IMG/VR virus record: IMGVR_UViG_3300035661_000086
Location: 1-51,101 of that record
Length of the DNA: 51,101 bases
Direction: 5' to 3' (one strand)
Source: a virus
The translations under genes were made by a program, and so were the position numbers. Below, in pieces: positions 3,131-40,620 of this stretch. The first letter of the stretch is position 1; every line of letters starts with the position of its first letter. Below the pieces are notes generated by a model. It searched no databases and had not been told where the DNA came from. It saw only the letters and a list, made by a program, of their open reading frames with translations.

Positions 3131-3143
3131 AAGGTATTGTTTC

Positions 3144-12761: not shown

Positions 12762-12783
12762 AATAGTAGGTTAGTTGATAGTT

Positions 12784-13119
12784 ATGTCAAAAGATAGTGG
12801 ATTTAAGAAAAGCGGAAAAACCTTCAAAAAGGCTCAAAAAGGAGGTGAAATCGTTAGCCATGATTCAAAAGAGAACGAAGCAGTTCTCGCTCAACCATTA
12901 GAAGTTAGAGTTTACAATAACAATTTTGACAAAGCTCTTCGTGCTTTTAGGGCTTTGGTGCAAAAAGAAAGAATTTTGTCTGCTTATAAAGAAAGGCAGA
13001 CATATGAAAAACCTTCTCAAAAGAGGAGAAGGAAGCGCAATGAGATGAAAAGAAAGATAATGGAATTAAACTCAAATAAACCAAGATCTTCCTCTAGAAA
13101 AGATTCTCAAGCAGAATAA
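12784..13119 (+). CDS. rpsU: Ribosomal protein bS21, extended
   Basis: Residues 38-95 match bS21: P-L-E-V-R-V-Y-N-N-N-F-D-K-A-L-R-A-F, then a short helix, Y-E-K-P-S-Q-K-R-R-R-K-R and a K-R-K-I-M-E-L basic helix. bS21 sits on the 30S platform next to the anti-Shine-Dalgarno end of 16S rRNA and helps initiation. Normal bS21 has about 71 residues. Here a 37-residue Lys/Gly-rich N-terminal extension and a Ser/Lys tail are added. I choose the ATG three codons after an in-frame TTG. Phage copies are known from large phages and are thought to exchange onto host ribosomes; that role here is inference. Confidence 0.9.
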   Translation: MSKDSGFKKSGKTFKKAQKGGEIVSHDSKENEAVLAQPLEVRVYNNNFDKALRAFRALVQKERILSAYKERQTYEKPSQKRRRKRNEMKRKIMELNSNKPRSSSRKDSQAE

Positions 13120-13126
13120 GGATCAA

Positions 13127-13825
13127 ATGTCTAATAGAAACGTAAAAGTATATAAAAATTCTGATAGAGAAACCCCTGATGTTGCAAAGAAGTATGTTCC
13201 TCAATATCAATTAAGGGGTATCGAACCTGAAGAATTTGCAAGTGCCGTAGTTCCGGATCATGTATTGATTAAGCAATCTACTACTAAGCTTCCGCCGACG
13301 AATCCAAGAGCACCACGTCCTCCTATTAGACAGCCATATGCTAAGGTTATCCCTTCCCCAGTCGGTAGGGGAAGGGGTCCAGTTCCTAATGTTGGTAACA
13401 ATATGGAACATACCTGGTCATCAGTAGATGGAGAATTGATAGATGATTTGTCTGATGATTCTTCATTTCAGCATGAAATGATTGATAATAATGAATTTGT
13501 TACAGATCAAGCTTTGGGGTTTTCAACAAATCATGTTGAAAAAGTTCCTCAGCCTACCAAGCCTTTTATGACCGAAAAAGATTTACAGGAAGTTATAAAG
13601 GACACTGATTTATCAACATTATCTCGGGCTAATATTGAAGATGATGAGCATATACTATTAGTTAATGGTGTCATATTCGCGTTTGGACCATTAAGTGTTA
13701 TTCAAGAAGAAACTAGAGCGTTGATTTTTGGAGAGCATGAGATATGCGATGGTAATCCGGTACCAGTTGAAGATCTATTAGTTTTGAAAAAAGTTAAGAT
13801 CAAGATTGGTGTATTTTTGGATTGA
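13127..13825 (+). CDS. Unknown protein with Pro/Arg-rich middle
   Basis: The 232-residue product starts with a basic segment. Residues about 50-85 are rich in Pro and Arg (P-R-A-P-R-P-P-I-R, G-R-G-R-G-P). An acidic stretch (D-D-L-S-D-D-S) follows, and a compact beta-like C-terminal domain occupies about 165-232. The start follows an AAGGAT ribosome site directly after bS21. The C-terminal domain (H-I-L-L-V-N-G-V-I-F-A-F-G) is not recognised. The disordered middle suggests a linker or binding platform, and its place before a coiled-coil protein hints at a virion role, weakly. Confidence 0.75.
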   Translation: MSNRNVKVYKNSDRETPDVAKKYVPQYQLRGIEPEEFASAVVPDHVLIKQSTTKLPPTNPRAPRPPIRQPYAKVIPSPVGRGRGPVPNVGNNMEHTWSSVDGELIDDLSDDSSFQHEMIDNNEFVTDQALGFSTNHVEKVPQPTKPFMTEKDLQEVIKDTDLSTLSRANIEDDEHILLVNGVIFAFGPLSVIQEETRALIFGEHEICDGNPVPVEDLLVLKKVKIKIGVFLD

Positions 13826-13834
13826 GGAGTTCCC

Positions 13835-14587
13835 TTGGAAAAAGAACCTAGAAAAGCTTCTGAAGTTTTATTAGAACTTGAGGCAAAAATTGATGTATTA
13901 ATGAGTATTGTTAGAACACAAGACTTAAACATCAAGATATTGTCTAACAAAGTTAACTCTCTTTTAGAAAAGGCTGATAAGCCTACTATTATTTCTCCTC
14001 CAGTTATTAAGGTTGAGGCAGTTGATACAAGACCTTTGTCAGATGACAATAGGCAGATTACAGTGGCTCCCGAACATGCCCTTCCTATTGAAAGAGAACC
14101 TCAAGGATTCAGAAGAACTTCTAGACCTGAAACATACTCGGGAGATGACGCTTACTTAAAGAGATCATCTAGTACTGCTGTTGTAGCTCCTAAATTTCCT
14201 ACACAAATTCCTAAATTGATGGAGCCAGAAGTAGTGGTCCCCAATCAAGCCACAAAGTTTACGGAAATTCCTTCAAAGAAAAAGGCAGATCAACCGGCGC
14301 CTTCCGGCAATAACATTCCTGTTATGCAAAGAATTGTTGATAAAAATGGCAAGTCAGTATTTTTAGCTGATGTCGAGATTATACAATCTGAAAATATGCA
14401 AACAGTAGTTAAAACTAGAACAAATGGGGCGGGCAAATGGATGCAATCTTTGCCAATTGGCACATATAGAGTTTTTGTTCGTAAAAGAGAATCTTTAAAC
14501 AAAGAGAAGTTGGAAATTGTCCAAGATATTCAGGTGGATGGATCAAAGTCTCCATTGGAACTTCAAACAATGATTATCAAAGCGTGA
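13835..14587 (+). CDS. Coiled-coil protein with Ig-like/regulatory beta domain
   Basis: It starts at TTG, five bases after a perfect GAGGAG site; no better ATG exists before the coiled coil. Residues 8-48 form a leucine-rich coiled coil, followed by a Pro/Ser/Arg-rich linker (50-155). The C-terminal 85 residues (D-K-N-G-K-S-V-F-L-A-D-V-E, T-R-T-N-G-A-G-K-W, L-P-I-G-T-Y-R-V-F-V) match the carboxypeptidase-regulatory/CnaB-type beta sandwich. Such domains are common on phage surface or baseplate proteins. The trimer-forming helix plus linker plus beta domain suggests a virion fibre or neck protein (inference). Confidence 0.78.
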   Translation: MEKEPRKASEVLLELEAKIDVLMSIVRTQDLNIKILSNKVNSLLEKADKPTIISPPVIKVEAVDTRPLSDDNRQITVAPEHALPIEREPQGFRRTSRPETYSGDDAYLKRSSSTAVVAPKFPTQIPKLMEPEVVVPNQATKFTEIPSKKKADQPAPSGNNIPVMQRIVDKNGKSVFLADVEIIQSENMQTVVKTRTNGAGKWMQSLPIGTYRVFVRKRESLNKEKLEIVQDIQVDGSKSPLELQTMIIKA

Positions 14588-14644
14588 AAACGTTATTCAA
14601 CTTAATAACGGATCCATATATTGACATGTGGAGAAATCAATCAC

Positions 14645-15346
14645 ATGTCATCAAAATACCAAGTTATAGTGGCTGACCCGCCCTGGGATTTTAAGGATTC
14701 CTTAAAAATGTCCGATGTAGCTCGTGGAGCAAGAGCAAATTATAGTACTATGTCTTTGCGGTCTATTAAAGAGTTACCAATTTCAGATTATTCCGATCCT
14801 ACTGGAACTCTTTTAGCGCTGTGGGTTCCATCATCCATGCTGCAAGACGGTCTGAATATTATGTCTGCCTGGGGTTTTAAGCACAAGCAGACGTATGTGT
14901 GGGTAAAAAATAAGAAAAATCTATTTAAACCCATCGTGACAAATTTGGTAAAAGTACTGAAAACATCCTTCAAAGAAGGCGGTAAGCCAAATTGGTCCCT
15001 CATAACAAAATTATGTAATGATACATCTAAGTTAATTCCTATGGATGATTTGTTAAGTTTTGGTATGGGTCGTTTGTTTAGACAAACACATGAGATTTGT
15101 TTGATTGGTATTAACAATACTGGTATTTATAAAAAATTAACAAATAGGTCCCAACGTTCTGTTTCTTTTGGTGAGAATTTGAAGCATTCTTCAAAGCCAG
15201 AACATTTACAAGTTTCTTTGGAAACCATGTTTCCAAACACTGAAAAATTAGAATTGTTTGCTAGAAGAGTTCGCCCCAATTGGACTTGTTTGGGAAACGA
15301 AATATGTAATGGCGAAGATATCGCGGTGTCACTCGCCAAACTGTAA
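14645..15346 (+). CDS. MT-A70 family adenine methyltransferase
   Basis: The catalytic motif A-D-P-P-W-D-F lies at residues 10-16 and the cofactor-binding region A-R-G-A-R-A-N-Y-S-T-M follows. Q-T-H-E-I-C-L-I-G and K-P-E-H-L-Q-V-S-L are the conserved late MT-A70 elements. The ATG used here has GGAG 11 bases upstream; an in-frame TTG 24 bases upstream is less likely. The family makes N6-methyladenine in DNA or RNA. In phages it often protects the genome from restriction or tunes transcription. No cognate restriction enzyme is present, so it is an orphan methyltransferase. Confidence 0.9.
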   Translation: MSSKYQVIVADPPWDFKDSLKMSDVARGARANYSTMSLRSIKELPISDYSDPTGTLLALWVPSSMLQDGLNIMSAWGFKHKQTYVWVKNKKNLFKPIVTNLVKVLKTSFKEGGKPNWSLITKLCNDTSKLIPMDDLLSFGMGRLFRQTHEICLIGINNTGIYKKLTNRSQRSVSFGENLKHSSKPEHLQVSLETMFPNTEKLELFARRVRPNWTCLGNEICNGEDIAVSLAKL

Positions 15347-15378
15347 CAACCGCATTATCGGAGGCTAATGTTGTAGCT

Positions 15379-15891
15379 ATGTCAAAGAAAACGTTACTAT
15401 TGAATGCAAGTTATGAAGTGCTTAACTTCATTCCAGAAAGAAAAGTTATTAAACACCTTATCAAAGATAAGGTAGAAGTTATTTCTAATTGGGATGATGA
15501 AATCATTTGGGGTACTGGTCACATTAAGCACCCTTCTATCATAAGATTAAAGACTCATGTTAAAAGAAACTACTTTAACGCTAACTTTAGCCGCAAGGCT
15601 TTGGTGAAAAGAGATAGAAGTACTTGCCAGTATTGTAACAAGAAGTTAACCGCTTCTCAAATCACTATTGATCACGTTTTACCACGTGCACAAAAAGGTG
15701 TTACTTCTTTTACCAACTGTGTAGTTTGTTGCCAAATCTGTAACAACAAAAAAGCTGATAGGACCCCCGAACAAGCGGCGATGATTTTGTTGAAAAAACC
15801 AACGCATCCCTCATTTTCAGCAAATCATTATTTGGCTGATCCTCAGGAACACTGGCACCATGATTGGGACGATTTCTTAAGAAATATATAA
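15379..15891 (+). CDS. HNH endonuclease
   Basis: The 170-residue enzyme has the common N-terminal L-L-L-N-A-S-Y-E module of one HNH family. The nuclease follows: C83/C86, catalytic D98-H99 in T-I-D-H-V-L-P, N113 in F-T-N, and C118/C121 with C-N-N-K-K-A-D-R-T-P. The two Cys pairs form the structural zinc site. It is free-standing and ends in an efficient-looking terminator. Relatives of this subfamily are widespread in bacteria and phages. A role in DNA processing or homing is possible; no target is evident. Confidence 0.92.
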   Translation: MSKKTLLLNASYEVLNFIPERKVIKHLIKDKVEVISNWDDEIIWGTGHIKHPSIIRLKTHVKRNYFNANFSRKALVKRDRSTCQYCNKKLTASQITIDHVLPRAQKGVTSFTNCVVCCQICNNKKADRTPEQAAMILLKKPTHPSFSANHYLADPQEHWHHDWDDFLRNI

Positions 15892-15909
15892 AGTTTGGTG
15901 TCATTTGAT

Positions 15910-15958
15910 ATGAAAGGAGGCAATAATGGGTCCCATTACCTCCTTTCATGATATTTTT
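15910..15958 (+). terminator. Rho-independent terminator
   Basis: An 11-bp perfect stem (ATGAAAGGAGG, 15910-15920, with CCTCCTTTCAT, 15939-15949) carries a nested inner stem (AATGGG/CCCATT). It is followed within four bases by five T residues. It sits 18 bases after the HNH gene and ends the TopA-to-HNH block. Confidence 0.8.
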
Positions 15959-16010
15959 CATTCAATAATTATGAATACTATATAGTCTCAATGGATATAT
16001 AGGATGCACC

Positions 16011-16268
16011 ATGACCCAACAGGTAAGTTACAATTGCATAGTATGTGCTGAAGAATTTGCTGATGAAGATACTGAACAACTACACTCTGTAGCCTTGTCA
16101 AGTATAAATATCACTAAATTTAAGATTTGTAAAGCCTGTTTAGATAAGTCCGATCCAACCGATGATTATCGTGAGGTGCGCAGTATTGTTAATTCATATC
16201 TAAAAACTGCTGAAGCCAAGAAATATTTTGAAGAAGCTAGAGAAATATTGAAATCATTGAAGAAATGA
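16011..16268 (+). CDS. Small zinc-ribbon protein, 85 aa
   Basis: N-terminal C-I-V-C (residues 9-12) and C-K-A-C (residues 41-44) pairs form a likely single zinc ribbon. A C-terminal charged helix (residues 55-85) follows. It is the first gene after the terminator and has AGGA six to seven bases before the ATG, preceded by the AT-rich GATATATAGGA. The family is not recognised; a protein- or nucleic-acid-binding adaptor would be typical for this size. Confidence 0.75.
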   Translation: MTQQVSYNCIVCAEEFADEDTEQLHSVALSSINITKFKICKACLDKSDPTDDYREVRSIVNSYLKTAEAKKYFEEAREILKSLKK

Positions 16269-16418
16269 TTAAAGTATTTCTATAATGGCAATTCTTTCTG
16301 GTTCTTCAATTTCAGTTTTTTGTTCAATAATGTCAGGAATGTCATCAATATACAATGATATTTGTTTTACATGTTCTTTTTCTTGCTTCTTGTGAATAAA
16401 GGGAAAGAATAATTCCAT
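16269..16418 (-). CDS. Small antisense unknown protein, 49 aa
   Basis: On the reverse strand GGAG lies nine bases before an ATG that opens 49 codons. The product has a hydrophobic start (M-E-L-F-F-P-F-I) and an acidic, Ile-rich tail (E-I-E-E-P-E-R-I-A-I-I-E-I-L). The frame stays open further upstream, but that part overlaps the divergent zinc gene. It directly abuts the end of the preceding gene without overlap and fills an otherwise empty 187 bases. Support is the ribosome site and protein-like composition; there is no homology. Confidence 0.45.
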   Translation of the reverse strand: MELFFPFIHKKQEKEHVKQISLYIDDIPDIIEQKTEIEEPERIAIIEIL

Positions 16419-16455
16419 AGATTGAATCTCCAGTGAATATACTAGAATAGTAGTT

Positions 16456-16653
16456 ATGCTATGTCCTACTTGTTCAAAACTATTATTTTTACATACAACC
16501 AAAAACTGTATTAAGTGCCAAAGTATTGTATTAAACAATTTATCAGTATTATGTGATTCTTGCTCTGCAATAGAAAAAAAATGCGCTGTTTGTTTGAAGA
16601 AAATCATTTTATCAACCAAACAACCTAGAGGCTGTGCATGTAAGGGTAAATAA
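16456..16653 (+). CDS. Small cysteine-rich zinc protein, 65 aa
   Basis: The product is almost wholly zinc-binding motif: C-P-T-C (3-6), C-I-K-C (18-21), C-D-S-C (33-36), C-A-V-C (43-46) and a final C-A-C (60-62). These are enough ligands for two zinc sites. Such mini-proteins are typical of large phages and may bind nucleic acid or RNA polymerase. It lies 12 bases before the deformylase gene. A longer antisense frame across it was judged to be a shadow because the Cys spacing here is too regular to be chance. Confidence 0.7.
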   Translation: MLCPTCSKLLFLHTTKNCIKCQSIVLNNLSVLCDSCSAIEKKCAVCLKKIILSTKQPRGCACKGK

Positions 16654-16665
16654 TTGGAAAGTTAA

Positions 16666-17196
16666 ATGATCATAAAGAATAACGAAGATTTACTTCGAGT
16701 AAAGTGTGATGATGTTGTACTAGATGAAGTTGGAGAATTAGTTTCTATTCTGGAAAAAGAGTTAGAACATTCTGCAAAACTAGGTGTTCCGGGCATAGGT
16801 TTAGCAGCCCCCCAAATAGGTATTGCCAAAAACATAGCAATAGTTAGAGTTAATAAAGATTTAAATTTCAATTTAATCAATTGTCAAATTGCTCAAGGAT
16901 ATGACCCAACTGTCTTTAGACAGGAGGGTTGTTTATCTTTTCCTGGAAGAGTAGAAGATACTATTAGATTTCAAGAAGTTCATATAGTTAACAACTTAGT
17001 TTATCCCCATAGTTTTATAGCCACAGGTTTGATAGCCGTAGTTTGTCAACATGAGATAGATCATCTTACTAGTAAGCTATTTATTGATCACTTGGCTCCC
17101 CAAGTAGTAACAGTTTCATCCAAAAAAAAAGTTGGACCCAATGAACCATGTATTTGTGGTTCTGGTAAGAAATATAAAAAATGTTGCACTAAGTAA
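16666..17196 (+). CDS. def: Peptide deformylase with C-terminal SEC-C motif
   Basis: All three deformylase motifs are present: G-I-G-L-A-A-P-Q-I-G (43-52), E-G-C-L-S (87-91) and Q-H-E-I-D-H (128-133). The metal ligands are Cys89, His129 and His133, and the catalytic Glu is Glu130. The enzyme removes the formyl group from nascent N-termini at the ribosome exit. After residue 155 a SEC-C zinc motif is fused (V-G-P-N-E-P-C-I-C-G-S-G-K-K-Y-K-K-C-C). That motif is best known from SecA tails, where it contacts SecB and ribosomes. The total is 176 residues, with the catalytic part shorter than usual. Phage deformylases are known, but this fusion is unusual. Confidence 0.93.
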   Translation: MIIKNNEDLLRVKCDDVVLDEVGELVSILEKELEHSAKLGVPGIGLAAPQIGIAKNIAIVRVNKDLNFNLINCQIAQGYDPTVFRQEGCLSFPGRVEDTIRFQEVHIVNNLVYPHSFIATGLIAVVCQHEIDHLTSKLFIDHLAPQVVTVSSKKKVGPNEPCICGSGKKYKKCCTK

Positions 17197-17222
17197 AAGT
17201 TATATAGCTACCTTGAGGACTT

Positions 17223-17444
17223 ATGGAAAAACAAGAAGCACAACAATTGACAAATGATGTATTGATGGCGGATGTCTTAATAAGATTGAAAGCCATAGAA
17301 AATATATTACTTGCTAAGAAGATATTTACAGATCTTGAGTTACAAGGGGAAATTAGAAGTATTACCGAAGTGTTATCAATGACTCTTTTGCAGAAAGCAA
17401 ATGTGTCAGGTGATTTGGATAAAATTGTAGAAGATTTGAAATGA
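17223..17444 (+). CDS. Small helical unknown, 73 aa
   Basis: The short product is predicted to be a helical hairpin or coiled coil with heptad Leu/Ile (residues 14-60) and no Cys or motif. GAGG lies six bases before the ATG, and the TGA overlaps the next start. It is located between deformylase and the thioredoxin-like protein in one operon. The family is not recognised. Confidence 0.65.
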   Translation: MEKQEAQQLTNDVLMADVLIRLKAIENILLAKKIFTDLELQGEIRSITEVLSMTLLQKANVSGDLDKIVEDLK

Positions 17445-17764
17445 TTTTCTTAACTCAAGAAAAAGACATAATAATTACAGGACTCCAGTCTTTGTATTTT
17501 TATTCCTCATGGATGCCTCATCATAAAAAAATGATGAGCATGCTTTCCAAGATGGAAGAGAAGTACAAGGATATGGGGTTTTTTGCCGTTGATGTGGATT
17601 TTTTCAAGGTTTTTTGTAAAAGATTCAACGTAACATCTATTCCAACTATTATCATATTAAATAATGGAAAAGAATTACGTAGAATTAACGGGTTGATTTT
17701 AACTAGTGCGCTGAGGAAAGCGTTTGCTGATATATGTGATTCTATAGGAGATATAAATGGATAA
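17441..17764 (+). CDS. Thioredoxin-fold protein lacking the CxxC
   Basis: The 107-residue product follows the thioredoxin pattern. A strand is followed by S-S-W-M-P-H-H-K-K at the start of the second helix, where thioredoxin has W-C-G-P-C-K. Next comes V-D-V-D and the cis-proline loop T-S-I-P-T with Pro68, then I-I-I-L-N-N-G-K-E. Both redox cysteines are replaced (Met25 and His28), so disulfide reduction is not possible by the usual mechanism. A structural, chaperone-like or processivity-factor role (as for T7 with host thioredoxin) is conceivable. The gene is coupled to both neighbours. Confidence 0.75.
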   Translation: MIFLTQEKDIIITGLQSLYFYSSWMPHHKKMMSMLSKMEEKYKDMGFFAVDVDFFKVFCKRFNVTSIPTIIILNNGKELRRINGLILTSALRKAFADICDSIGDING

Positions 17765-18098
17765 GAAAGCTAAGAAAAAAGTCGTCGCCCCTGTTGTAGA
17801 AACACCTGTTGTAGTGGCACCGGCACCTGCACCTGCCGCTCCCGTTAAGTCTGATGCTGATAAAATTTGGGATGAGATAAAGAATCTTAAGTTAGAAATG
17901 TTTGCGTTGGATAATCAATTTGTACACTTGTATTATAAGCAAGTTCTTATTGATCCATCAAAACTTCATTTAACTGCTTTGACTAAGGCTACATCCGCAT
18001 TACCTGCATTAGAAACTGCGGTTTCACCTAAGTATCAAACAGAGCAAGTAGATAGATTTATTGCAGTTACTTTGGCTCCGCCTAAGGTAAAGAAATAA
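17757..18098 (+). CDS. Unknown protein with Pro/Ala/Val-rich N-terminus
   Basis: The first 33 residues alternate Pro, Ala and Val after a Lys-rich start (K-K-A-K-K-K), a flexible linker-like segment. Residues 34-113 form a compact helical domain. A strong AGGAGAT ribosome site lies in the preceding gene. The family is unknown. The layout suggests a tethered interaction domain. Confidence 0.68.
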   Translation: MDKKAKKKVVAPVVETPVVVAPAPAPAAPVKSDADKIWDEIKNLKLEMFALDNQFVHLYYKQVLIDPSKLHLTALTKATSALPALETAVSPKYQTEQVDRFIAVTLAPPKVKK

Positions 18099-18107
18099 GG
18101 AGTTATC

Positions 18108-18602
18108 ATGCCTTTTGATGAAGAAGATGATGTTCCTTCTACACAGTCTAAAAAAATAGGTTTGAAGAATGTTAGTACTCAAAAATCTATTTTCGACTCA
18201 ATACCAAAAAAACCAACGCAAGAAGAATTGGATAGGAAAGTTAATACAATTCAGGAAAGAGCTTCTGGTCATAAAGTTAAAGCTGCTGAATTGGCATTGC
18301 AATTCAATAAATCTATGATGGATAAGACTCTTAAGACTAATAAAACCATTTTTAGTTCAGAATTAGAAAAAGAACTTCTGACAAGAATGATTCAATTAGC
18401 AATTGAGATTAATGATGATCCTGCTGAGCAAAATGATATGGGATCTTTGAGTTGGATAACCTTATTATTAAGAACCTGTTTTTCTCAAAGAGATAGAATC
18501 AATGATTTAGAATACACACTATCTCAAATTGATAAAAAAATGGACACCCTAATTTCTACGAAAATTACACAGGCTCTTGACAAGAAAAAAGCCAGTGAAT
18601 AA
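18108..18602 (+). CDS. Unknown helical protein, 164 aa
   Basis: It starts after a good AAGGAG site. The N-terminal 45 residues are Ser/Thr/Lys-rich and probably disordered. Residues 46-164 are helical, with a hydrophobic middle (W-I-T-L-L-L-R-T-C-F) and a terminal coiled coil. No motif is recognised. It precedes the primase zinc-domain gene and may belong to the replication block. Confidence 0.7.
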   Translation: MPFDEEDDVPSTQSKKIGLKNVSTQKSIFDSIPKKPTQEELDRKVNTIQERASGHKVKAAELALQFNKSMMDKTLKTNKTIFSSELEKELLTRMIQLAIEINDDPAEQNDMGSLSWITLLLRTCFSQRDRINDLEYTLSQIDKKMDTLISTKITQALDKKKASE

Positions 18603-18605
18603 ACT

Positions 18606-18785
18606 ATGATCACCAAAGAATTATTATTGCTTTTAATTTCTGAGGAAAAAGAGAATTTTAGCAAATATTCACAGCTATGTACAAATTATCAGATAGTTCA
18701 GGATCCGTTAGCGATAGCGAAACATCTCGGTATTATGGAAACTCTTCAGAAACTGTTGCAGGAAAGAAGTTTTACCAAGACTTAA
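18606..18785 (+). CDS. Possible 59-aa protein overlapping the primase start
   Basis: An ATG three bases after the preceding stop opens 59 codons encoding a Leu-rich helix followed by an amphipathic helix (L-G-I-M-E-T-L-Q-K-L-L-Q-E). It overlaps the start of the primase zinc-domain gene by 109 bases in another frame. Either it is a real overlapping gene, or the primase starts later than given, or the two frames are joined by a frameshift. The protein-like composition is the only support. Confidence 0.3.
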   Translation: MITKELLLLLISEEKENFSKYSQLCTNYQIVQDPLAIAKHLGIMETLQKLLQERSFTKT

Positions 18786-19309
18786 TCAAAAGGGCAGATT
18801 CAGTTCCCCTAACTAAACTATTTAAATTGTATGGTTTAAGGCTAGATGAACAGAATAGAAAAGTAATCTGCCCCTTTTCATCTCATAAAGGAGGACGAGA
18901 AAATTCGCCCTCCTTTTATTTTTATCCACAAACAAATAGTTTTTGGTGTTTTGGTTGCAAAACAGGGGTAAGATGTTGTGATTTTGTATCCAACATGGAC
19001 AAAATATCTAGAGTAAAAGCGGCATACAAGATATTGGATATTTTTAAGTCTGATTCTGATGAAGATGCCGTTGTGATTGATAGGGATAACTTCTCTGAAA
19101 AATTAGAGATTATGTTGAATTTCTCAAATGGTGTACGAAGTTTTAGACAACTTAATAATGATGAAAAATCACGTACATTTATCGAAGATATCTGCATGGT
19201 ATATGACACTATAAATGCGAAGCACAATCTTAATAATGAAGCTTTACGTTCAGTAGTTGATCAACTCAAAGAAAGTATAAAAGATTACGTACCATGTCCA
19301 ATGTTATAA
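18677..19309 (+). CDS. DnaG-type primase zinc-binding domain protein
   Basis: The 210-residue product carries the CHC2-type primase zinc site: C65-P-F-S-S-H70, then S-P-S-F-Y-F-Y and F-W-C91-F-G-C94, followed by the D-F-V helix. In primases this domain reads the template start site. The TOPRIM catalytic core is missing and is encoded separately at about 43.2-43.9 kb. The first 30 residues are Ser-rich and may be non-native if the start is later. It overlaps the SbcD gene by 16 bases. Confidence 0.85.
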   Translation: MYKLSDSSGSVSDSETSRYYGNSSETVAGKKFYQDLIKRADSVPLTKLFKLYGLRLDEQNRKVICPFSSHKGGRENSPSFYFYPQTNSFWCFGCKTGVRCCDFVSNMDKISRVKAAYKILDIFKSDSDEDAVVIDRDNFSEKLEIMLNFSNGVRSFRQLNNDEKSRTFIEDICMVYDTINAKHNLNNEALRSVVDQLKESIKDYVPCPML

Positions 19310-20493: not shown

Positions 20494-22697
20494 TTCCGTC
20501 AAAATTATACATTGAAAACTTCATGTGTCACGAAAAGAGTTTTGTGGATTTTTCTCAATTCCAATCGGCTCTAATTGTCGGCAAAATGGAAAATAATGAT
20601 TCTTTCTCTAATGGTGTAGGTAAATCATCTATTTTTAAGGCTATAGAATATGTTCTTTTTAATCAAGCAGATGTCAATCTAGAAAAAATCATCAGAGATG
20701 ATGCAAATATTTGTATGATCACTTTTGATTTTTTAATTGGTGAGCAGGAATATAGAATAATTCGTAAAAGAACAAAAAAAGGTAGTACTGATTTAACTCT
20801 TTTACAAAGAAATTCCGTTGTTGGTTCCGAAATAGAAGTATATCACGATCTGAAATCTGATCCGATATCAGATGACAAATTCTGGAAGGATATTTCTGGT
20901 CGCCGCGCAGCCGATACAGAAAAAGAATTAGAAAAGTTAATCAAGATTAACTTCAAAACCTTTAGAAGTATCGTGCATTTTGTGCAAAATGATTTTTCAG
21001 GTTTAACTACATCTACTCCGGAAAAAAGAAAAGCCCTTTTTAAGGACGCTTTGAATCTTGCTATTTATTCAAAACTGGAAAAAATAGCAAAAGACCGTTC
21101 TTCTGTTTTGGTAAAAGAAATAGATAAACATAAAATATTGATTGATTCTCTAATGTCCGCAGGTGTTGATCTAGAAGAGCTTCAAGAACAGTCTCTAGAA
21201 GTAGAGACTAAGATAGAATCTTTGATTAAAACACTAGAATCTCCAACAGCAAATTTAACACTGCTGAACAGTGAATTAAGCGAATTGTTGCGTACTCATA
21301 AAGATTTGGAAAGTAAATCCATATCTCTGATAGAAAAAGAAAAAGTTCTTTTGGTAGAAAAATCAAGATTAGAATTATCAGTAAAAGATTATCAAGGCAA
21401 AAAGAATGCTGCCGTTAAGCAGGCAAAAGAACTAATAGATGAGGTAAAGAAATCTAAAGAACTATCTAATAGTTTAAGTGAGATAGATTTTTCTGAAATC
21501 AATTCTTTAGCCGAACAAATTAGCGAGCATAAACAAAAATTGGCATATCTAAATGTTTCGGTGCAGAATAATATTGCTGATTATGAAGATTTGAAAATTC
21601 CATTTCCAGATGATAGCGTATGCAAACATTGTCGTCAGCCAATGACACAAGAACATAAGAAAGTTTGCTTAGAGCAAGTTGCTAAGAATATGGAAAAATG
21701 TCAACACAATATTGCTGTGGCGAAAAAAGAAATCGCACTTCTCAATGGAGAAGTTAATAATTATCAATTAAAGATGAATTCTTTAACACGATCTAAGCAA
21801 CAATTAGATGAATTGAACAATAAGCTTACGCTTAAAAATAAAGAGTTGCAAGATAAAAAGAATCTTCATGCAGATTATTCTGGTTTGTATGATAAGTTTT
21901 TGGACGATTTGAATAATAAATTGTCTGAATTAGATGAGATTAAAGCAATGATTGCTATGTCATCCATTTCTGAAGCTAATGAAATCATGACGCGCATAGA
22001 TACTCAGAGGTCAAAGATCGTTGGGACAAATTCTGAAATTGCCTCTCTAAACAAAGAAATTGCGCATTTGACAGCTTCCAGGGCTGTGATCAAGCATAAC
22101 ATCGAACAAAAGAATAAAGAAATAGTTCGAATGAATAGTTTGAAAATTAGATTGCAAGATTTAGAAAAGAAACATGCTATGTACCCAAACGTGATACAGG
22201 CATTTTCTACCACGGGAATTCCAAATCTGATAATACAAAATGTATTGGATGATTTACAATTAAAAGCTAATGATTTGTTGAATAAATTGAGACCTGGATT
22301 ACAGTTATCTTTTTTTATCGAAAAGACAAAGGGGGATGGCACAGAATCAGATACTTTGGATATTCATTACCATGTGAATGGTAAAGATAGGTATTATGAA
22401 CAACTTTCCGGAGCAATGAAGCTAGCTGTGACTTTTAGTTTAAAAATTGGGTTGAATTATCTTTTACAAGATATATTTGGAACTAATATCAAGCTGCTAT
22501 TATTAGATGAGATTGATCAATCTTTAGATAAAGCCAGCGTAGATTCATTTGCCGATATTGTAAAGTTTTTCCAGAAAGATTTTACAATTCTAGTTATTAC
22601 ACACAATGATAGATTAAAAAACAAATTTGCTAATGGTATTTTAGTTGAGCAAGATCTTAATATGATATCTAAAGCCAGAGTAGTTAATAGTTGGTAA
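20490..22697 (+). CDS. sbcC: SbcC/Rad50-type ATPase (gp46-like)
   Basis: The 735-residue SMC-like ATPase has Walker A with S-N-G-V-G-K-S-S (40-47) and Q-N-D-F near 165. A long coiled coil contains a zinc hook C378-K-H-C381. The signature is Q-L-S-G-A-M-K-L-A, Walker B is L-L-L-L-D-E-I-D, and I-T-H-N-D is the switch element. It is shorter than bacterial SbcC (about 1050), close to T4 gp46-like phage forms. Paired with SbcD it processes DNA ends during recombination-dependent replication. Confidence 0.96.
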   Translation: MIPSKLYIENFMCHEKSFVDFSQFQSALIVGKMENNDSFSNGVGKSSIFKAIEYVLFNQADVNLEKIIRDDANICMITFDFLIGEQEYRIIRKRTKKGSTDLTLLQRNSVVGSEIEVYHDLKSDPISDDKFWKDISGRRAADTEKELEKLIKINFKTFRSIVHFVQNDFSGLTTSTPEKRKALFKDALNLAIYSKLEKIAKDRSSVLVKEIDKHKILIDSLMSAGVDLEELQEQSLEVETKIESLIKTLESPTANLTLLNSELSELLRTHKDLESKSISLIEKEKVLLVEKSRLELSVKDYQGKKNAAVKQAKELIDEVKKSKELSNSLSEIDFSEINSLAEQISEHKQKLAYLNVSVQNNIADYEDLKIPFPDDSVCKHCRQPMTQEHKKVCLEQVAKNMEKCQHNIAVAKKEIALLNGEVNNYQLKMNSLTRSKQQLDELNNKLTLKNKELQDKKNLHADYSGLYDKFLDDLNNKLSELDEIKAMIAMSSISEANEIMTRIDTQRSKIVGTNSEIASLNKEIAHLTASRAVIKHNIEQKNKEIVRMNSLKIRLQDLEKKHAMYPNVIQAFSTTGIPNLIIQNVLDDLQLKANDLLNKLRPGLQLSFFIEKTKGDGTESDTLDIHYHVNGKDRYYEQLSGAMKLAVTFSLKIGLNYLLQDIFGTNIKLLLLDEIDQSLDKASVDSFADIVKFFQKDFTILVITHNDRLKNKFANGILVEQDLNMISKARVVNSW

Positions 22698-22699
22698 TT

Positions 22700-22969
22700 A
22701 TGAAAAAAGATAATGATTTTGAATTATTGGTTCGTGAAGAATGTAATGCTCTTGCTGACATGTTGATAGAAAAAAACCGTGCTTATGGTAATAGTGCTCT
22801 AGAACCAGTACGTGTTTTTTCAAAAGCTTCTCCTGAAGAACAAATACTTGTGCGCCTTGATGATAAACTATCTCGTTTGGCTCGTGGAAACAACGCTGGT
22901 GAAGATGTAGTTTTAGACCTTCTTGGATATTTGGTTTTATTGCGCATTTCTCGTCAAGTCAAAAAATAA
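22700..22969 (+). CDS. MazG/DUF1599-like nucleotide-associated protein
   Basis: The 89-residue product has R-E-E-C-N-A-L-A-D-M-L, K-N-R-A-Y-G-N-S-A, D-K-L-S-R-L-A and a closing E-D-V-V-L-D-L-L-G-Y-L helix. This is the all-helical nucleotide-pyrophosphohydrolase-like pattern found in phage DUF1599/MazG-like proteins. Acidic residues on two helices could bind Mg. It may clean or modify the nucleotide pool. An upstream TTG is in frame but the ATG is preferred. It closes the SbcCD operon. Confidence 0.65.
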   Translation: MKKDNDFELLVREECNALADMLIEKNRAYGNSALEPVRVFSKASPEEQILVRLDDKLSRLARGNNAGEDVVLDLLGYLVLLRISRQVKK

Positions 22970-22970
22970 T

Positions 22971-22984
22971 TACACTATAATGGT
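22971..22984 (+). promoter_or_regulatory. Possible promoter or operator with TATAAT
   Basis: The 32-base gap between genes contains TACACTATAATGGT, which includes a perfect -10 hexamer 20 bases before the next ATG. No good -35 is seen 17 bases upstream. The same 14 bases, inverted, lie at 4464-4477, which suggests a shared binding site rather than coincidence. Confidence 0.35.
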
Positions 22985-23001
22985 TATTTAAACATTTATA
23001 C

Positions 23002-23319
23002 ATGAACGTGGAGCTGTTTAAGAAGGAATTTGTTCCAAGATATGTATCGGGAGGGCAGGAAAAGTTCTATAAGAACCTATTAATTGCCTCCCTCAATAAA
23101 TTGGTAGCAATAAGTAATGGTACCTATAAGGGGACTCCTCCCCATTTAGAATTATTAGATTATTACGACCAACTCATAATTTTATATAGAAGAGAGGGTG
23201 AAGGGCTTTATTTGGAAATCGCCAAAACCTTCCGCCGCGCTGCTCATAAAGTATATAGAATTATGTTAAAAAAGAGAATGAGCCAACCAAACCCAAGATT
23301 TCTAAACGTTGTAGTTTAA
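23002..23319 (+). CDS. Unknown basic helical protein, 105 aa
   Basis: The basic, mostly helical product has many Arg/Lys/Tyr residues (I-L-Y-R-R-E-G, F-R-R-A-A-H-K-V-Y-R). No motif is recognised. It follows the TATAAT-containing gap, so it may start a transcription unit, and lies one base before the surface-type protein gene. No clear ribosome site is visible. Confidence 0.68.
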   Translation: MNVELFKKEFVPRYVSGGQEKFYKNLLIASLNKLVAISNGTYKGTPPHLELLDYYDQLIILYRREGEGLYLEIAKTFRRAAHKVYRIMLKKRMSQPNPRFLNVVV

Positions 23320-23320
23320 C

Positions 23321-24304
23321 ATGGCTGTAATTAACTTAACCATTACTGAATCAGCAGAACAAGTAATTGCTGGTATACCTAAAAGTGTCACAATCACTTC
23401 TAATATTCCTTCTTCTATTTTTTATACATTAAATGGTAGTACGCCAACTTTGTTTTCTAATATATATACTGGACCAATACTATTACCTATTAATCAGTTA
23501 TCTGTAATTTTAAGTATAATGGCTACCAATGGGGCAGATTCATCTCCTGTTATTGTTGACGAATATACTACCAATATACTAAGTAACACTAGATTAGCTC
23601 ATTCAGCTACAGATGCTCCCGCTGGCTCTAATATTCCGGGTTTGTATCCTTTTGGTACGCCACCCGCTCAACCTGTGGGGAATTTCTTAAATCCGGGTGA
23701 TGCTGGTACAAATGTTAATGACCCGGCGGTGTCAACCAAATCAACAGGTTTTGATGCAGATGGTTATCCAAACGCATTTACTAACAAACCTTATACTTCA
23801 GAAAATTATAACATTGTTTACACTACTAGAAATGCAACTGGCGAGGCAATTGTTGGTAATTTGCCAGCTCAAGTTAAGATTGAAAATCAGCCTGCTGCCC
23901 CAGAAGAAAGTACACAATTTACAAGCGTGTTCGATCCAAGGGCGTTCGTAATTTTTCAAGACTTTTCAAAAGAAGATCCTAATGGACCAATACAAATAAA
24001 TAGGCAATTTTTCACTTTAGAAAATACTGAACGTGCACGTGATGGAAATGCTTTTTATACGAGTGGATTAGATGCTCCACCAGTTAGTGGATCTTTCTTG
24101 AGATCACATTATAATCCACGTGATAATACAATTACCTATTATTATTTAGACACTTGGACTAATAGGTGGATTATTTCCAAAGCACCTTATCAGCCTACTG
24201 GCACTTTCAATGGCAATCTTTCCAATATTGCCACGGCAGGCGGTGGTGAGGGAAATAAATATATTTTCGAATGGTTGCCTTTTACACGTAGAGTGTTATT
24301 CTAA
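23321..24304 (+). CDS. Probable virion surface protein with chitobiase-type beta domain
   Basis: Residues about 15-60 match the chitobiase/hexosaminidase C-terminal beta domain (S-S-I-F-Y-T-L-N-G-S-T-P-T ... I-Y-T-G-P-I). These domains occur in phage adhesins and structural proteins. A Pro/Gly-rich middle (95-150) and a beta-rich C-terminus ending in F-E-W-L-P-F-T-R-R follow. At 327 residues with no enzymatic motif, a decoration, neck or fibre role is likely (inference). Its C-terminal coding sequence is partly repeated 60 bases downstream, just before the HNH gene. Confidence 0.72.
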   Translation: MAVINLTITESAEQVIAGIPKSVTITSNIPSSIFYTLNGSTPTLFSNIYTGPILLPINQLSVILSIMATNGADSSPVIVDEYTTNILSNTRLAHSATDAPAGSNIPGLYPFGTPPAQPVGNFLNPGDAGTNVNDPAVSTKSTGFDADGYPNAFTNKPYTSENYNIVYTTRNATGEAIVGNLPAQVKIENQPAAPEESTQFTSVFDPRAFVIFQDFSKEDPNGPIQINRQFFTLENTERARDGNAFYTSGLDAPPVSGSFLRSHYNPRDNTITYYYLDTWTNRWIISKAPYQPTGTFNGNLSNIATAGGGEGNKYIFEWLPFTRRVLF

Positions 24305-24340
24305 AATCTATCAATAGTTTGATATTTCGAATGGTTACCA
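24266..24340 (+). repeat. Direct repeat of the 3' coding end, 60 bp apart
   Basis: TTTCGAATGGTT followed by NCC occurs in the last codons of the surface-protein gene and again exactly 60 bases later in the gap before the HNH gene. In matching frame both encode F-E-W-L-P-F. This looks like a remnant of a duplicated or displaced gene end, as left when a homing endonuclease gene inserts with foreign flank. Confidence 0.6.
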
Positions 24341-24352
24341 TTTGGAGATATC

Positions 24353-25021
24353 ATGGAATTTCAAATATGTAAGGTTTGTCTTCTTAGTAAGCAATTAACA
24401 ATAGATAATTTTTCTCAAGGCAGCAATAAAAGAAATGGAGTCTTGTGCTCATATTGGTATAAGACTTGCAAAGATTGCGATAAAGATAGGCTGAACAAAA
24501 AATCGCACAAGTATAAAGAAAAAAATAGAAAATCTATTGCTATTAAGCAAACTAAATATCATGCATTAAATAAAGAACAAGATTCAAATACAAAGAAACA
24601 ATGGTATCAAAATAATAAAGAAGCTGTAAAGGCTCGTGTTAAAAAGAATACATATACACGTCGCAGCAATGATTCAATTTTTAGAATGAAAGAAAGTATA
24701 TCTTCTAATATTCGTTCTTGTATCAAGAAGAATAGACAATCATTTTTTAGATTTTTACAATATTCAATTGATGAATTAAAAAAACATTTAGAGAAACAAT
24801 TCGAATCTTGGATGTCATGGAACAATTATGGTATTTATTGTGTAGATAAATGGAAAGACGATGATCAGTCTACTTGGACATGGCAAATTGATCATATTGT
24901 TCCTCATTCAAAATTTATGTATACTTCTATGGAAGACGACAATTTTAAGAAATGTTGGGCATTAGAAAACTTAAGACCGTACTCGGCTAAACAGAATATA
25001 ATTGATGGTAATAGAAGATGA
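24353..25021 (+). CDS. HNH homing endonuclease, free-standing
   Basis: The 222-residue protein has an N-terminal zinc finger (C-K-V-C ... C-K-D-C, residues 6-42) and a very basic helical spacer (45-130). The C-terminal HNH core is W-Q-I-D-H-I-V-P-H-S-K-F followed by K-K-C-W-A-L-E-N-L-R-P. This arrangement is typical of phage homing endonucleases. GGAG lies seven bases before the ATG. It is coupled (ATGA) to the next gene, and both are more AT-rich than their surroundings, consistent with an inserted unit. Confidence 0.87.
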   Translation: MEFQICKVCLLSKQLTIDNFSQGSNKRNGVLCSYWYKTCKDCDKDRLNKKSHKYKEKNRKSIAIKQTKYHALNKEQDSNTKKQWYQNNKEAVKARVKKNTYTRRSNDSIFRMKESISSNIRSCIKKNRQSFFRFLQYSIDELKKHLEKQFESWMSWNNYGIYCVDKWKDDDQSTWTWQIDHIVPHSKFMYTSMEDDNFKKCWALENLRPYSAKQNIIDGNRR

Positions 25022-25773
25022 ATAAACTTATTGATGCACATCATGTAGAATGTAGACGATCCTCTAAATTCTCTAAAACACCCGCTCAATCTTGTAGAAA
25101 AACAGAATTATATCTTTGGGATAAAAATAAATCAAATAGGTGGAGTGATAAGAAGTATTCTACTGAGAGTATGAATCGCACAAAAAAATCAATTTTTAAA
25201 TCATTAGAAAATGAGTTTACTAAATGTGAATGTAGTTTTAATACTTTTTTAGAAGGAATCAAATCATCAAGTTATCTTATAAATGAAGATAACGAAAAAA
25301 AGATCATGGCTACATACATAGCTATGAATATATGTAGAAATCCAAATAATTTAGATGCTGCCCTAAAAAGAAATAAGAAGAATTTTAAGGACAAAATGAT
25401 AAGAAATCAAACTATTGATAGTTTGATTCGTGCACTTTTTCCAATATTTTATTATAATATGCAACACAATCATTATTTTATCAAAACTACAGATGAACTA
25501 TTAATTTGTCCAGATAGTATTATCTATTCCGTGAGGGATAAAAATTATGTAAATGATACTTATCACATAATGCCTTTAACACATAATAAGTATTTATTAT
25601 GCTGTTATGATTTTCATTCTATGAAAGGTAAACAAATAAAAAGAAATTTTACTGCTAATGAAATTAATAATTTGTCATTTATGTCAAATTGTCAATATTT
25701 GTGTGGAGATGACAATACTATTTGTTTAAACATTATGAATAATTTTATTGTAAATGATTTCGTTTATCATTGA
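25018..25773 (+). CDS. Possible DUF4238-like protein, cargo of the HNH insertion
   Basis: The 251-residue product starts with a basic region. It has a middle helical part and a later segment reading F-I-K-T-T-D-E-L-L-I-C-P-D-S-I-I-Y-S with a following M-P-L-T-H-N-K-Y-L-L. This resembles the F-x-T-S-D-N-P-V and P-L-S-P arrangement of DUF4238 proteins. Those are of unknown function, and relatives turn up near defence or mobile genes. The start overlaps the HNH stop, and the gene has the same high AT content. Assignment to the family is tentative. Confidence 0.5.
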   Translation: MNKLIDAHHVECRRSSKFSKTPAQSCRKTELYLWDKNKSNRWSDKKYSTESMNRTKKSIFKSLENEFTKCECSFNTFLEGIKSSSYLINEDNEKKIMATYIAMNICRNPNNLDAALKRNKKNFKDKMIRNQTIDSLIRALFPIFYYNMQHNHYFIKTTDELLICPDSIIYSVRDKNYVNDTYHIMPLTHNKYLLCCYDFHSMKGKQIKRNFTANEINNLSFMSNCQYLCGDDNTICLNIMNNFIVNDFVYH

Positions 25774-25838
25774 AAATTATTAGTATTTTCGTGATGATAT
25801 ATTGCGTATTACACATTATTTGAAAGACGCGTGACGAC

Positions 25839-26627
25839 ATGTCAAATGAATTAAGATTGTCCGTATCCAAAACAAAAACATTTTTGGATTGTAAGGCTAA
25901 GTTTAAGTATGCTTATGTTGAGAAATTGCCAAGAAAAGATTGGGAATTCCATACCTTTGGAAAGTTTTGTCATAAGGTATTAGAGGATTTTCACAATGCT
26001 TATCTTAATGGTTCTCAGGAAGCTTATAGTGTAGTTATGTCCAAATCTTTCAAAGATGCTGTAGTAGAATATAAGTCAGCTATGACTCCAGAGATGAAGA
26101 AGGATTGTTGGAAGATTATTGATCAATATTTAAAGATTGTTACCACAGATAAAAAAAATAATTTGTCCGCCAACGTAATTGCGTGCGAAAAGAATTTCGA
26201 ATTTTTAGTGGATGGTAAAATTATCTTAAATGGGATGATTGACAGAATCCAGATCGATGACGATGGTGTAGTGCATGTCTGCGACTATAAGACGGTCAAA
26301 AATAAAAAATACTTGAAAGACGATTTTTTCCAATTGTTAACATATGCCTATGTTATAATTTCGGAAGATCCTTCAATTGAGAAAGTTAGAGCATCTTACA
26401 TTTTGCTCAGACATGATTTTGAATATATTACTACAGAATTCGCCGTTCCAGAGATTATGAAAATTCAAGATAAGTATCTTGAATATGCTGAACAGATTTT
26501 AACAGAAAAAGAATATATGCCTAATCCAACGGCTCTATGTAATTTCTGCGATTATTTGAATCTTTGTCCAGAGGGCAAAGCTAAATCTTATGGTCAGAAT
26601 ATTTATGGCGAAGTAACATACGGTTAA
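25839..26627 (+). CDS. Cas4/RecB-type PD-(D/E)XK nuclease with Fe-S cysteines
   Basis: The 262-residue nuclease has His45 in G-K-F-C-H, Asp135 in G-M-I-D-R-I and D149-x-K151 in C-D-Y-K-T, followed by the Q-L-L-T-Y-A helix. Cys18 plus C234-x2-C237-x5-C243 make the four-cysteine Fe-S site of the Cas4/AddB class. Such enzymes are ssDNA exonucleases. Here it likely acts in recombination with SbcCD and RecA, since no CRISPR genes or arrays are present. A GATATAT element lies 40 bases upstream. Confidence 0.9.
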   Translation: MSNELRLSVSKTKTFLDCKAKFKYAYVEKLPRKDWEFHTFGKFCHKVLEDFHNAYLNGSQEAYSVVMSKSFKDAVVEYKSAMTPEMKKDCWKIIDQYLKIVTTDKKNNLSANVIACEKNFEFLVDGKIILNGMIDRIQIDDDGVVHVCDYKTVKNKKYLKDDFFQLLTYAYVIISEDPSIEKVRASYILLRHDFEYITTEFAVPEIMKIQDKYLEYAEQILTEKEYMPNPTALCNFCDYLNLCPEGKAKSYGQNIYGEVTYG

Positions 26628-26654
26628 GTTAAAGACATTTTGGTAAGAGGAAAT

Positions 26655-27902
26655 ATGGAAATCGAAGTTAAAGAGCTAGAGTCATGCAAGTTAAGCATAC
26701 AATATGTGGCTGATGCTGGAGAAATTCTAGACAAACGTGGTCAAGTTCTACAAGCTTTTAAGAAAGCTCCTGTTCCCGGATTTAGACCCGGTAAAGGATC
26801 TTTAGATGCTATTAAGATGCATTATAGATCCCAAATAGAAGAGTCTCTAAAAAGAGGTTTAGCAGAAGATGCGTATCACAATACCATTTTCGAAAAGAAA
26901 TTAAGACCACACGGCGCCCCTCTGTTTAAGTCTGTTTTGATGGCAGATGGCAAATTCACATGTGAATTTGAAATTCATGTTAAGCCAGATTTTACATTAG
27001 CTTCTTATGTGGGAATGGATATTCCAAAACCACACTCTGATACTACAGAAGTTGATTTTGCCGAAAAGTTACTTCAAGAACTTAGAGTTAAGTTTGGTGA
27101 AGTCTCTCCATATACCGAAAGTGACACGGTTCAACCTGGCGACAATATCATTATAGACTATGAGGGAACTCTCGACGGAAAAAAGATTAACAATCTTTCC
27201 GCCGAAGGTGAGATGTTAACTGTTGGTCGCAGCCAATTAATGAATTTTGATGACAGTTTGGTTGGTATGACATTGGGAGAAACTAGAGAATTTGATTTGG
27301 TAGTTCCAGAACATGGTTTACCATCTTTAGCTGGCAAGACTCTTCATTTCAAAGTCACTTTGAATATGGGTTCAAAAACGGAGCCGTGTCCATTAGATGA
27401 TACTCTGGCGCACAAATTAGGCAAGAAAGATTTTGCAGAATTAAGAGAGCATGTCAATGGTATGTCAATGACTAGAATGACAAATAATTTCAAAATGCAA
27501 ATCATAGAGGCTATTTCTGCTCGTTTGGTAGCTGATAATAACTTCACTGTTCCAAATTGGTTAAGTTTGTCAGAGGCTCAATACTTAGTACATAATGCTA
27601 AGGCTGATTGGGACGCCATGGCAGAAGAAGATAAACAAAGATACATTGAAATTGCAGAAAAAAATGTAAAATTGGCTCTTATCTTGGATAAAGTAAGAGA
27701 ATCTGAACTAGATGCACAAATTACAGATCAAGAAGTGTTTGAAGTCATCAAACAGAATTTAATGAAAACTCAAACAAAAGATTCAGTAGATAATGCAATT
27801 AAAGAGATGAATAGAACTGGTTATTTACAAATTCTATTCTCTAGAATCAAAGATGAATACGCATTGGATTTCATCGCTAAGAAGATTAATATTGTTGAAT
27901 AA
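26655..27902 (+). CDS. tig: Trigger factor, full length
   Basis: The 415 residues cover all three trigger-factor domains. The ribosome-binding domain carries the docking loop P-G-F-R-P-G-K-G-S (G42-F43-R44), at the same place as G43-F44-R45 in E. coli. The FKBP-type prolyl isomerase domain (G-D-N-I-I-I-D-Y-E-G-T-L-D-G-K ... P-x-L-A-G-K) spans about 150-240. The helical substrate-binding arms fill 245-415. AGAGG precedes the ATG, and the five codons upstream in frame are not needed. Trigger factor cradles nascent chains at the ribosome exit. With the docking loop kept, competition with the host protein is likely. Phage-encoded versions are rarely noted. Confidence 0.93.
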   Translation: MEIEVKELESCKLSIQYVADAGEILDKRGQVLQAFKKAPVPGFRPGKGSLDAIKMHYRSQIEESLKRGLAEDAYHNTIFEKKLRPHGAPLFKSVLMADGKFTCEFEIHVKPDFTLASYVGMDIPKPHSDTTEVDFAEKLLQELRVKFGEVSPYTESDTVQPGDNIIIDYEGTLDGKKINNLSAEGEMLTVGRSQLMNFDDSLVGMTLGETREFDLVVPEHGLPSLAGKTLHFKVTLNMGSKTEPCPLDDTLAHKLGKKDFAELREHVNGMSMTRMTNNFKMQIIEAISARLVADNNFTVPNWLSLSEAQYLVHNAKADWDAMAEEDKQRYIEIAEKNVKLALILDKVRESELDAQITDQEVFEVIKQNLMKTQTKDSVDNAIKEMNRTGYLQILFSRIKDEYALDFIAKKINIVE

Positions 27903-29731: not shown

Positions 29732-29733
29732 AT

Positions 29734-40551: not shown

Positions 40552-40620
40552 TCTTTTTCCTGATATATTAACCTATAGTAATATTTGCCGAAACTTCTAC
40601 CAATATTATATCATTCAGAC

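Follow-up and report, generated by a model that had tools for sequence, protein, structure and literature searches.

Huge phages are known to encode parts of the translation machinery, including bS21 proteins with N-terminal extensions, peptide deformylases (PDFs), elongation and release factors and tRNAs, and have been proposed to redirect host translation (Al-Shayeb et al. 2020, PMC7162821; apart from searches for single terms, statements on this and the other papers cited refer to excerpts of them). We analysed a 51,101-base virus record (IMG/VR IMGVR_UViG_3300035661_000086; hereafter the window), which carries genes for bS21, for a PDF ending in a SEC-C module and for trigger factor (TF). 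The excerpts of Al-Shayeb et al. list bS21 and PDF, as in the window, and describe no fixed bS21-PDF-TF block, unlike the clade presented here; neither 'trigger factor' nor 'chaperone' occurs in the main text of that paper, the part searched. Bacteroidetes phages that encode bS21 (Chen et al. 2022, PMC9723584) also resemble the present ones in having a phage bS21, chaperones and a Clp protease in the genome. There, bS21 is a late-expressed gene situated among those for terminase, capsid and protease, whereas the present bS21 adjoins an AAA+ gene where a replication block begins or ends. This location among replication genes suggests that the time of bS21 expression differs from that in the phages of Chen et al., whose paper names an FKBP-type isomerase and nowhere uses the term 'trigger factor'.

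The viral PDFs Vp16 and S-SSM7 have their fold and catalytic motifs in common with the window PDF (PMC5591237). They are short and, in the excerpts, are reported to lack the ribosome-binding C-terminal region, whereas the window PDF adds SEC-C, a term that does not occur in that paper. Bacterial TF (1w26, 2vrh) shares with the phage protein three domains, a GFRxGK-type loop and the overall fold; the two differ in sequence (~22% identity by structural alignment), and the phage TFs form a separate clade on a long stem. Our preferred reading, of modest confidence, is that huge tailed phages of one clade maintain, within their DNA-replication block, three proteins that act on the host ribosome. 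Action of the three on host ribosomes is likely, and their coordination is possible, as an inference.

Conservation and ancestry of the set

The initial annotation had named bS21, deformylase-SEC-C and TF, and had placed them within 15 kb of each other. Both statements stood: the Pfam matches exceed their cut-offs (Table 1), the PDF and TF models match known folds, and the three genes occupy 15.1 kb of a single strand. The window agrees with a 446,541-base IMG/VR record (G001, the 446.5-kb record below) at 99.99-100% identity over the 31.1 kb compared, and the bS21, PDF and TF proteins of the two are 100% identical. By its genes for a terminase large subunit (phrog_675, E 9.9e-58), a portal (phrog_16240, E 1.9e-52) and a tail sheath (phrog_2839, E 4.2e-12, C-terminal part only), the 446.5-kb record is a contractile-tailed phage. 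Further records of the clade span 321-481 kb. Pfam alone, applied to 17 large records, found Terminase_6N in 9 (4 over the cut-off) and sheath in 8 (0 over the cut-off).

Table 1. Features of the window, with positions on the window and the matches on which each assignment rests.
Feature	Positions	Strand	Support
bS21, basic N- and C-terminal extensions	12784..13119	+	PF01165 58 bits vs cut-off 27; phrog_21469
Peptide deformylase + SEC-C	16666..17196	+	PF01327 92.6 bits; PF02810 33.9 bits vs 20.4
SEC-C module of deformylase	17140..17187	+	PF02810 33.9 bits; K168, K169, K171, K172 invariant (30 sequences)
Trigger factor: ribosome-binding, FKBP-type PPIase and C-terminal chaperone domains	26655..27902	+	Trigger_N 73.6, FKBP_C 29.0, Trigger_C 34.0 bits
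Putative ribosome-docking loop of TF, GFRPGK, residues 42-47	26778..26795	+	aligns with E. coli TF loop
ClpR-like member of the ClpP family, catalytic Ser and His lost	2546..3130	+	PF00574 158.7 bits
ClpP-family member, catalytic Ser and His kept	3102..3728	+	PF00574 162.1 bits
Thioredoxin-like protein, second gene downstream of deformylase	17441..17764	+	PF00085 47.5 bits; 16/18 regions (tblastn)
PD-(D/E)XK nuclease, conserved gene just upstream of TF	25839..26627	+	PF12705 109.9 bits; 17/18 regions
M41-like zinc peptidase domain, HEAGH motif, weak assignment	29728..30393	+	PF01434 30.4 bits vs 29.9; 12/18 regions
DnaE-type DNA polymerase III alpha, downstream in block	30509..34024	+	17/18 regions; tblastn ~30% identity to annotated phage DnaE
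DnaJ co-chaperone	41783..42790	+	PF00226, PF01556 over cut-off; 17/18 regions

A profile scan of IMG/VR returned 64 loci with a related TF. Trigger_N was present in 38/40 records picked for PDF or bS21 (one, G005, for TF alone) and in 15/50 other records, nine of the 50 being TF-picked. Among 53 TF records, 41 also hold bS21 and PDF. The order bS21-PDF-TF on a single strand was found in every one of these 41, which include four copies identical in the genes compared; the distance between the bS21 and TF matches has a median of 13.5 kb (range 11.1-27.4 kb). The ten TF records that lack bS21 are all fragments of at most 43.2 kb, and the nine without PDF comprise seven fragments and two further records (G039 and G078). 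Eight of 15 additional TF records hold bS21 and PDF, by eye in the same order and on the same strand; six of the other seven are no longer than 45.6 kb, and the last, of 84.7 kb, has its TF ~3.5 kb from the contig end.

Comparison of 56 window proteins by tblastn with 54-kb regions of 18 large records detected bS21, PDF, TF and DnaJ in 17 regions each, and likewise SbcC, SbcD, DnaE and an SSB-like protein; the regions were chosen via the place of bS21, and TF and PDF were already known from the majority of them, which leaves the counts for these three not independent. RecA matches in the same comparison include weak ones (23-32%). Pairwise identities of TF, bS21 and PDF track those of DnaE (r 0.92, 0.91 and 0.80). 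Omega, the ratio of nonsynonymous to synonymous change, was 0.05-0.07 for TF and 0.10-0.14 for bS21 (3 informative pairs each) and 0.02-0.04 for PDF (2 informative pairs); several informative pairs are near synonymous saturation, and 13 further pairs were identical and uninformative. All three genes are under purifying selection, and their long joint retention is supported.

A sample blind to the three genes was drawn with a topoisomerase I (TopA) DNA motif. It gave 61 viral records, 60 of which were tested, a 7.7-kb record (L178) being left out. Of the 60, 36 had all three genes, 15 only PDF and 6 none of them; bS21 and PDF without TF occurred in 2, and TF and bS21 without PDF in 1. After removal of four duplicate copies, TF and bS21 gave the table [[21, 2], [0, 33]] (Fisher 1.9e-13, from rows that share ancestry). 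In this reduced sample TF was found in 15 of the 20 TopA records of at least 200 kb, all 15 with bS21, and five records of 214-494 kb lacked it, four of them lacking bS21 as well. On the strength of these five records we rejected genome size as the cause of co-occurrence, the explanation against which the initial annotation had asked that its proposal be checked.

On the TopA tree (built without five short rows, three TF-negative pairs with identical TopA being kept) the 30 TF rows form one clade (SH-aLRT support 98), with one change and no loss inside; bS21 is present in 30/30 of these rows and PDF in 29/30. The TF tree agreed. It compared 30 of the 43 distinct phage TFs with 20 bacterial TFs (24 bacterial genomes, 23 matched, 21 loci tried, 20 proteins passed) and grouped the phage proteins in one clade with 100/100 support, on a stem of 1.73 changes per column. 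Phage TF thus has a single origin. Since TF is a single change on the TopA tree, we do not accept co-occurrence as independent proof that the three form a joint system: one ancestral set was kept jointly, rather than assembled repeatedly, and the Fisher value gives no independent support. In this respect the initial annotation, to which the co-occurrence had suggested such a system, was not supported; the identities track DnaE as well.

Features directed to the ribosome

The initial annotation had all three proteins acting on the translating ribosome, and features pointing that way recur in each: SEC-C on most PDFs, the putative docking loop of TF, and bS21 itself.

In the window PDF, the catalytic core (residues 2-146) is followed by SEC-C (residues 159-174). 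The PDF motifs GxGxAAxQ, EGCLS and HExxH are present, with G45, Q50, E87-G88-C89 and H129-E130-H133 invariant in an alignment of 30 deformylases that takes in phages outside the clade; Cys 162, 164, 173 and 174 of SEC-C are invariant in the same alignment. The module follows the SEC-C pattern CxC-x(8)-C[CH] with a basic loop, a few clade members spacing the Cys pairs more widely. The AlphaFold model (predicted local distance difference test, pLDDT, 92.6; predicted template modelling score, pTM, 0.79) matches solved deformylases. The type 1B alpha-3 helix, the uL22 contact, was not found in it: a linker and then SEC-C follow the core, and past the HExxH helix (H121-134) the model has only helices H139-142 and H170-173.

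In E. coli PDF the C-terminal alpha-3 helix is the ribosome contact (PMC5591237; also PMC12690207). SEC-C occupies the place of this helix in the phage protein and may be a substitute anchor, because the isolated metal-binding (SEC-C) domain of SecA co-sediments with ribosomes and has been placed near uL23 (PMC6620043). A SEC-C-like module with four Cys is present on 46/49 clade PDFs examined (38/38 distinct ones, 7/8 others and 1/3 more), 37 of the 38 distinct PDFs coming from TF-bearing records and the remaining one from a fragment that stops short of the place of TF. By profile reading, SEC-C was found on 0/17 PDFs from those TopA-sampled phages that lack TF; one of the 17 is a fragment without the C terminus. 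It was also found on 0/77 readable bacterial PDFs among the best 80 of at least 573 confirmed hits (3/80 had no readable PDF open reading frame). One bacterial locus (L402) aligns as far as query residue 174, yet has no SEC-C motif there; by eye, many bacterial PDF tails resemble the usual basic C-terminal helix. We found no paper joining deformylase with a SEC-C motif in the open-licence literature, and a PDF with SEC-C at the helix position appears new. The window PDF matches 88 records of INPHARED. One record has a second, weak deformylase match (41.8 bits), at L513 (G002 345500-346700), with no open reading frame by the motif rule.

All three Pfam domains of TF are over the cut-off and stand in the usual order, the gene starting at ATG 26655 with an in-frame TTG at 26640. 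In 30 phage TFs, G42 and R44 of the putative docking loop are invariant and G46 is kept in at least 90%. Trigger_C was found in 18/18 records tested, 17 over the cut-off. The alignment of the AlphaFold model (pLDDT 86.7, pTM 0.68) with full-length E. coli TF spans 429-433 columns, with a Foldseek E of 1.1e-22 for 1w26. Template modelling (TM) scores of 0.56 (1w26) and 0.64 (2vrh), with root-mean-square deviations of 10 and 7, indicate that the placement of the domains differs from that in the solved structures.

In INPHARED the window TF matches 25 records, all below 32% identity. We suspect that many of these (short faecal contigs and unannotated laboratory-phage records) hold bacterial DNA; cultured phages with TF are possible given these matches. 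No description of a phage TF was found among the papers listed from the open-licence literature on phage genomes, phage bS21 and viral auxiliary genes, and the excerpts of a virome paper report no TF analogue detectable among its viral proteins (PMC8407431). A viral TF appears new.

The bS21 gene starts at ATG 12784, with an in-frame TTG at 12775, and has TopA, the AAA+ gene, PDF and replication genes as neighbours; in the 446.5-kb record the terminase gene is ~44 kb away. A viral bS21 has been reported to enter E. coli ribosomes (PMC6375957), as the phage protein may do in its own host. In INPHARED the window bS21 matches one record, at E 7e-3. In Salicola phage SCTP-2, considered as a relative and rejected, bS21 adjoins a ClpX gene and a ClpS-like gene; TopA, PDF and TF are absent from the annotation of the 40 kb examined, in which most genes are hypothetical.

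Other genes of the block and the parent record

The initial annotation had extended the set to folding and degradation through DnaJ, a ClpP pair and an M41-type protease. The extension stands for DnaJ, present in 17 of the 18 regions, and two ClpP-family genes are indeed there; it is weakened by one ClpP lacking the catalytic Ser and His, by the marginal M41 assignment and by the lesser spread of the ClpP pair and M41. The M41 match covers residues 22-105 only, and no AAA domain was found. The ClpP pair occurs in 11/18 regions, a twelfth record having one ClpP. In the 12 records with the pair (window included), the first member has lost both the Ser and His columns in 12/12 and the second keeps both in 12/12, its Asp column being D in 8/12. 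No Clp ATPase came up among those window proteins that were scanned. Cyanobacteria and plastids have heteromeric ClpP/ClpR proteases, in which the genes for an active and an inactive subunit lie next to each other. Because one member has lost the catalytic Ser and His, the phage pair is, by its residues, a ClpP/ClpR-like arrangement, resembling those proteases in its adjacent active and inactive subunits, here as phage genes.

A gene for a DksA/TraR-type zinc finger protein (2190-2543, PF01258) adjoins the ClpP pair, and one for an MT-A70-type methyltransferase (14621-15346; 15/18 regions) lies between bS21 and the deformylase. Within the replication block, 23321-24304 encodes a core protein with a chitobiase C-terminal and an Fn3-associated domain (17/18 regions); this clade-specific protein had no match in INPHARED. 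The HNH-type genes at 24353-25021, 28282-29199 and 40585-41232 occur in 7, 3 and 1 of the 18 regions, as expected of mobile homing nucleases. GTPases of EF-G or EF-Tu size were seen at G002 426584-427420, G033 67398-68252 and G097 391514-392083. We rejected elongation factors as members of the set: GTP_EFTU was found in 3/14 records, and is hence accessory in the clade.

G+C content of the 446.5-kb record is 43-59% at ~20,000-140,000 (L515-L520) vs 32-37% nearly everywhere else scanned, with 39% in the first 20 kb. The high-G+C stretch may be foreign DNA or an assembly chimera, and with a possible chimera the real size of this genome is uncertain. ARAGORN found 36 tRNA genes over the 400 kb scanned of this record, 7/36 of them in its first 140 kb, and 0 in the window. 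Two of the tRNA genes have a CTA anticodon (L514 15230-15303 and L529 811-884). The stop codons of 66 window genes are TAA in 44, TGA in 22 and TAG in 0. Reading through TAG did not raise the coding density of the AT-rich part of the 446.5-kb record, so the pattern suggests avoidance or suppression rather than plain recoding.

Clues to the host are few. Best identity of the window DnaE among the INPHARED matches listed was 29-34%, and the TF tree places no bacterial group within the phage clade. Motifs resembling Shine-Dalgarno sequences precede 23/66 window starts, against a mean of 10.3 and a maximum of 20 in 200 shuffles, an excess that only hints at a host using Shine-Dalgarno pairing.

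Explanations for the joint retention

In the reading we prefer, the phage bS21 would take the place of the host protein, which is only loosely held, at the 30S platform, the site of mRNA choice. SEC-C, in most members, would stand in for the ribosome-binding helix and probably dock PDF at the tunnel exit. The phage TF would use its GFRxGK-type loop to dock near uL23, where it would shield or fold chains as they emerge. With all three, an infected cell would be able to initiate, deformylate and fold much phage protein without depending on the supply of host factors.

Several observations weigh against this reading. PDF lacks SEC-C in three TF-bearing records (G057, G065 and G103, the first two being sisters on the TopA tree), and two TF records, G039 and G078, have no PDF although the bS21-TF interval is covered. 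PDF-SEC-C and bS21 both occur in phages without TF. The SEC-C domain of SecA binds ribosomes weakly according to its authors, and binds SecB too (PMC6620043), so that SEC-C on PDF need not mean the ribosome. In the TF loop, a few sequences differ at F43 and K47. A viral bS21 left E. coli ribosomes with ~5% activity in vitro (PMC6375957), and such a near-stop would fit shut-off or host mismatch equally with takeover. Finally, TF has a nuclease gene as its neighbour and DnaE close by, a position that would also suit a chaperone of replication proteins, and shared ancestry explains the co-occurrence.

These last points belong to an explanation that we regard as a serious possibility, held tentatively: the three would be core genes without joint function, gained by the clade ancestor and each kept for its own reason, for instance TF and DnaJ for replication or virion proteins, PDF for deformylation and bS21 for initiation, the set being one by descent. 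The single TF clade on both trees (100/100 on the TF tree) and the tracking of DnaE identities are as this explanation would have it, as is the setting of TF among a nuclease and small core genes. TF was also found in 0/12 tested PDF-SEC-C records outside the clade, the non-clade PDF loci being biased to SEC-C (the motif was one of six scan patterns) and giving no phage-wide SEC-C frequency. It was likewise found in 0/26 records from a bS21 DNA-motif scan, most of them short and one above 100 kb; the motif was used as query because the bS21 alignment over distant phages was too variable, and the profile confirmed 25/26 of these records as bS21. Against descent alone stand the ribosome-directed features kept by all three proteins and the presence of bS21 in all TF records above 50 kb except the 84.7-kb one.

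A stronger version of the preferred reading makes the nascent-chain line specific to the phage. Ribosomes with a swapped bS21 would pick phage messages at the 30S subunit, SEC-C-tethered PDF and TF at the exit would process mainly phage chains, and SEC-C would be a portable anchor reused by phages. We consider this unlikely in its full form.

Interference with the host is improbable. PDF-SEC-C and TF would here crowd the tunnel exit and exclude host SecA, signal recognition particle or TF, disturbing secretion or quality control, with catalysis secondary. Exit-site binders do share ground (PMC6620043), and the PDF module is of the SecA SEC-C type. The catalytic residues of PDF are nevertheless invariant in 30 sequences, its omega is very low (in two pairs, near synonymous saturation), and the window TF retains its PPIase and C-terminal domains, Trigger_C being found in every record tested. 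Recent capture of host genes as useless cargo, for which we found nothing in favour, is refuted by the long TF stem, purifying selection and clade-wide synteny.

Earlier work describes how viruses control translation at its initiation, elongation and release steps (PMC7162821). A viral TF would extend such control to co-translational folding, and where one virome paper, in its excerpts, detected none (PMC8407431), TF is here kept by a whole clade. The SEC-C-tagged PDF, for its part, provides a simple test of how phage deformylases that lack the helix reach the ribosome.

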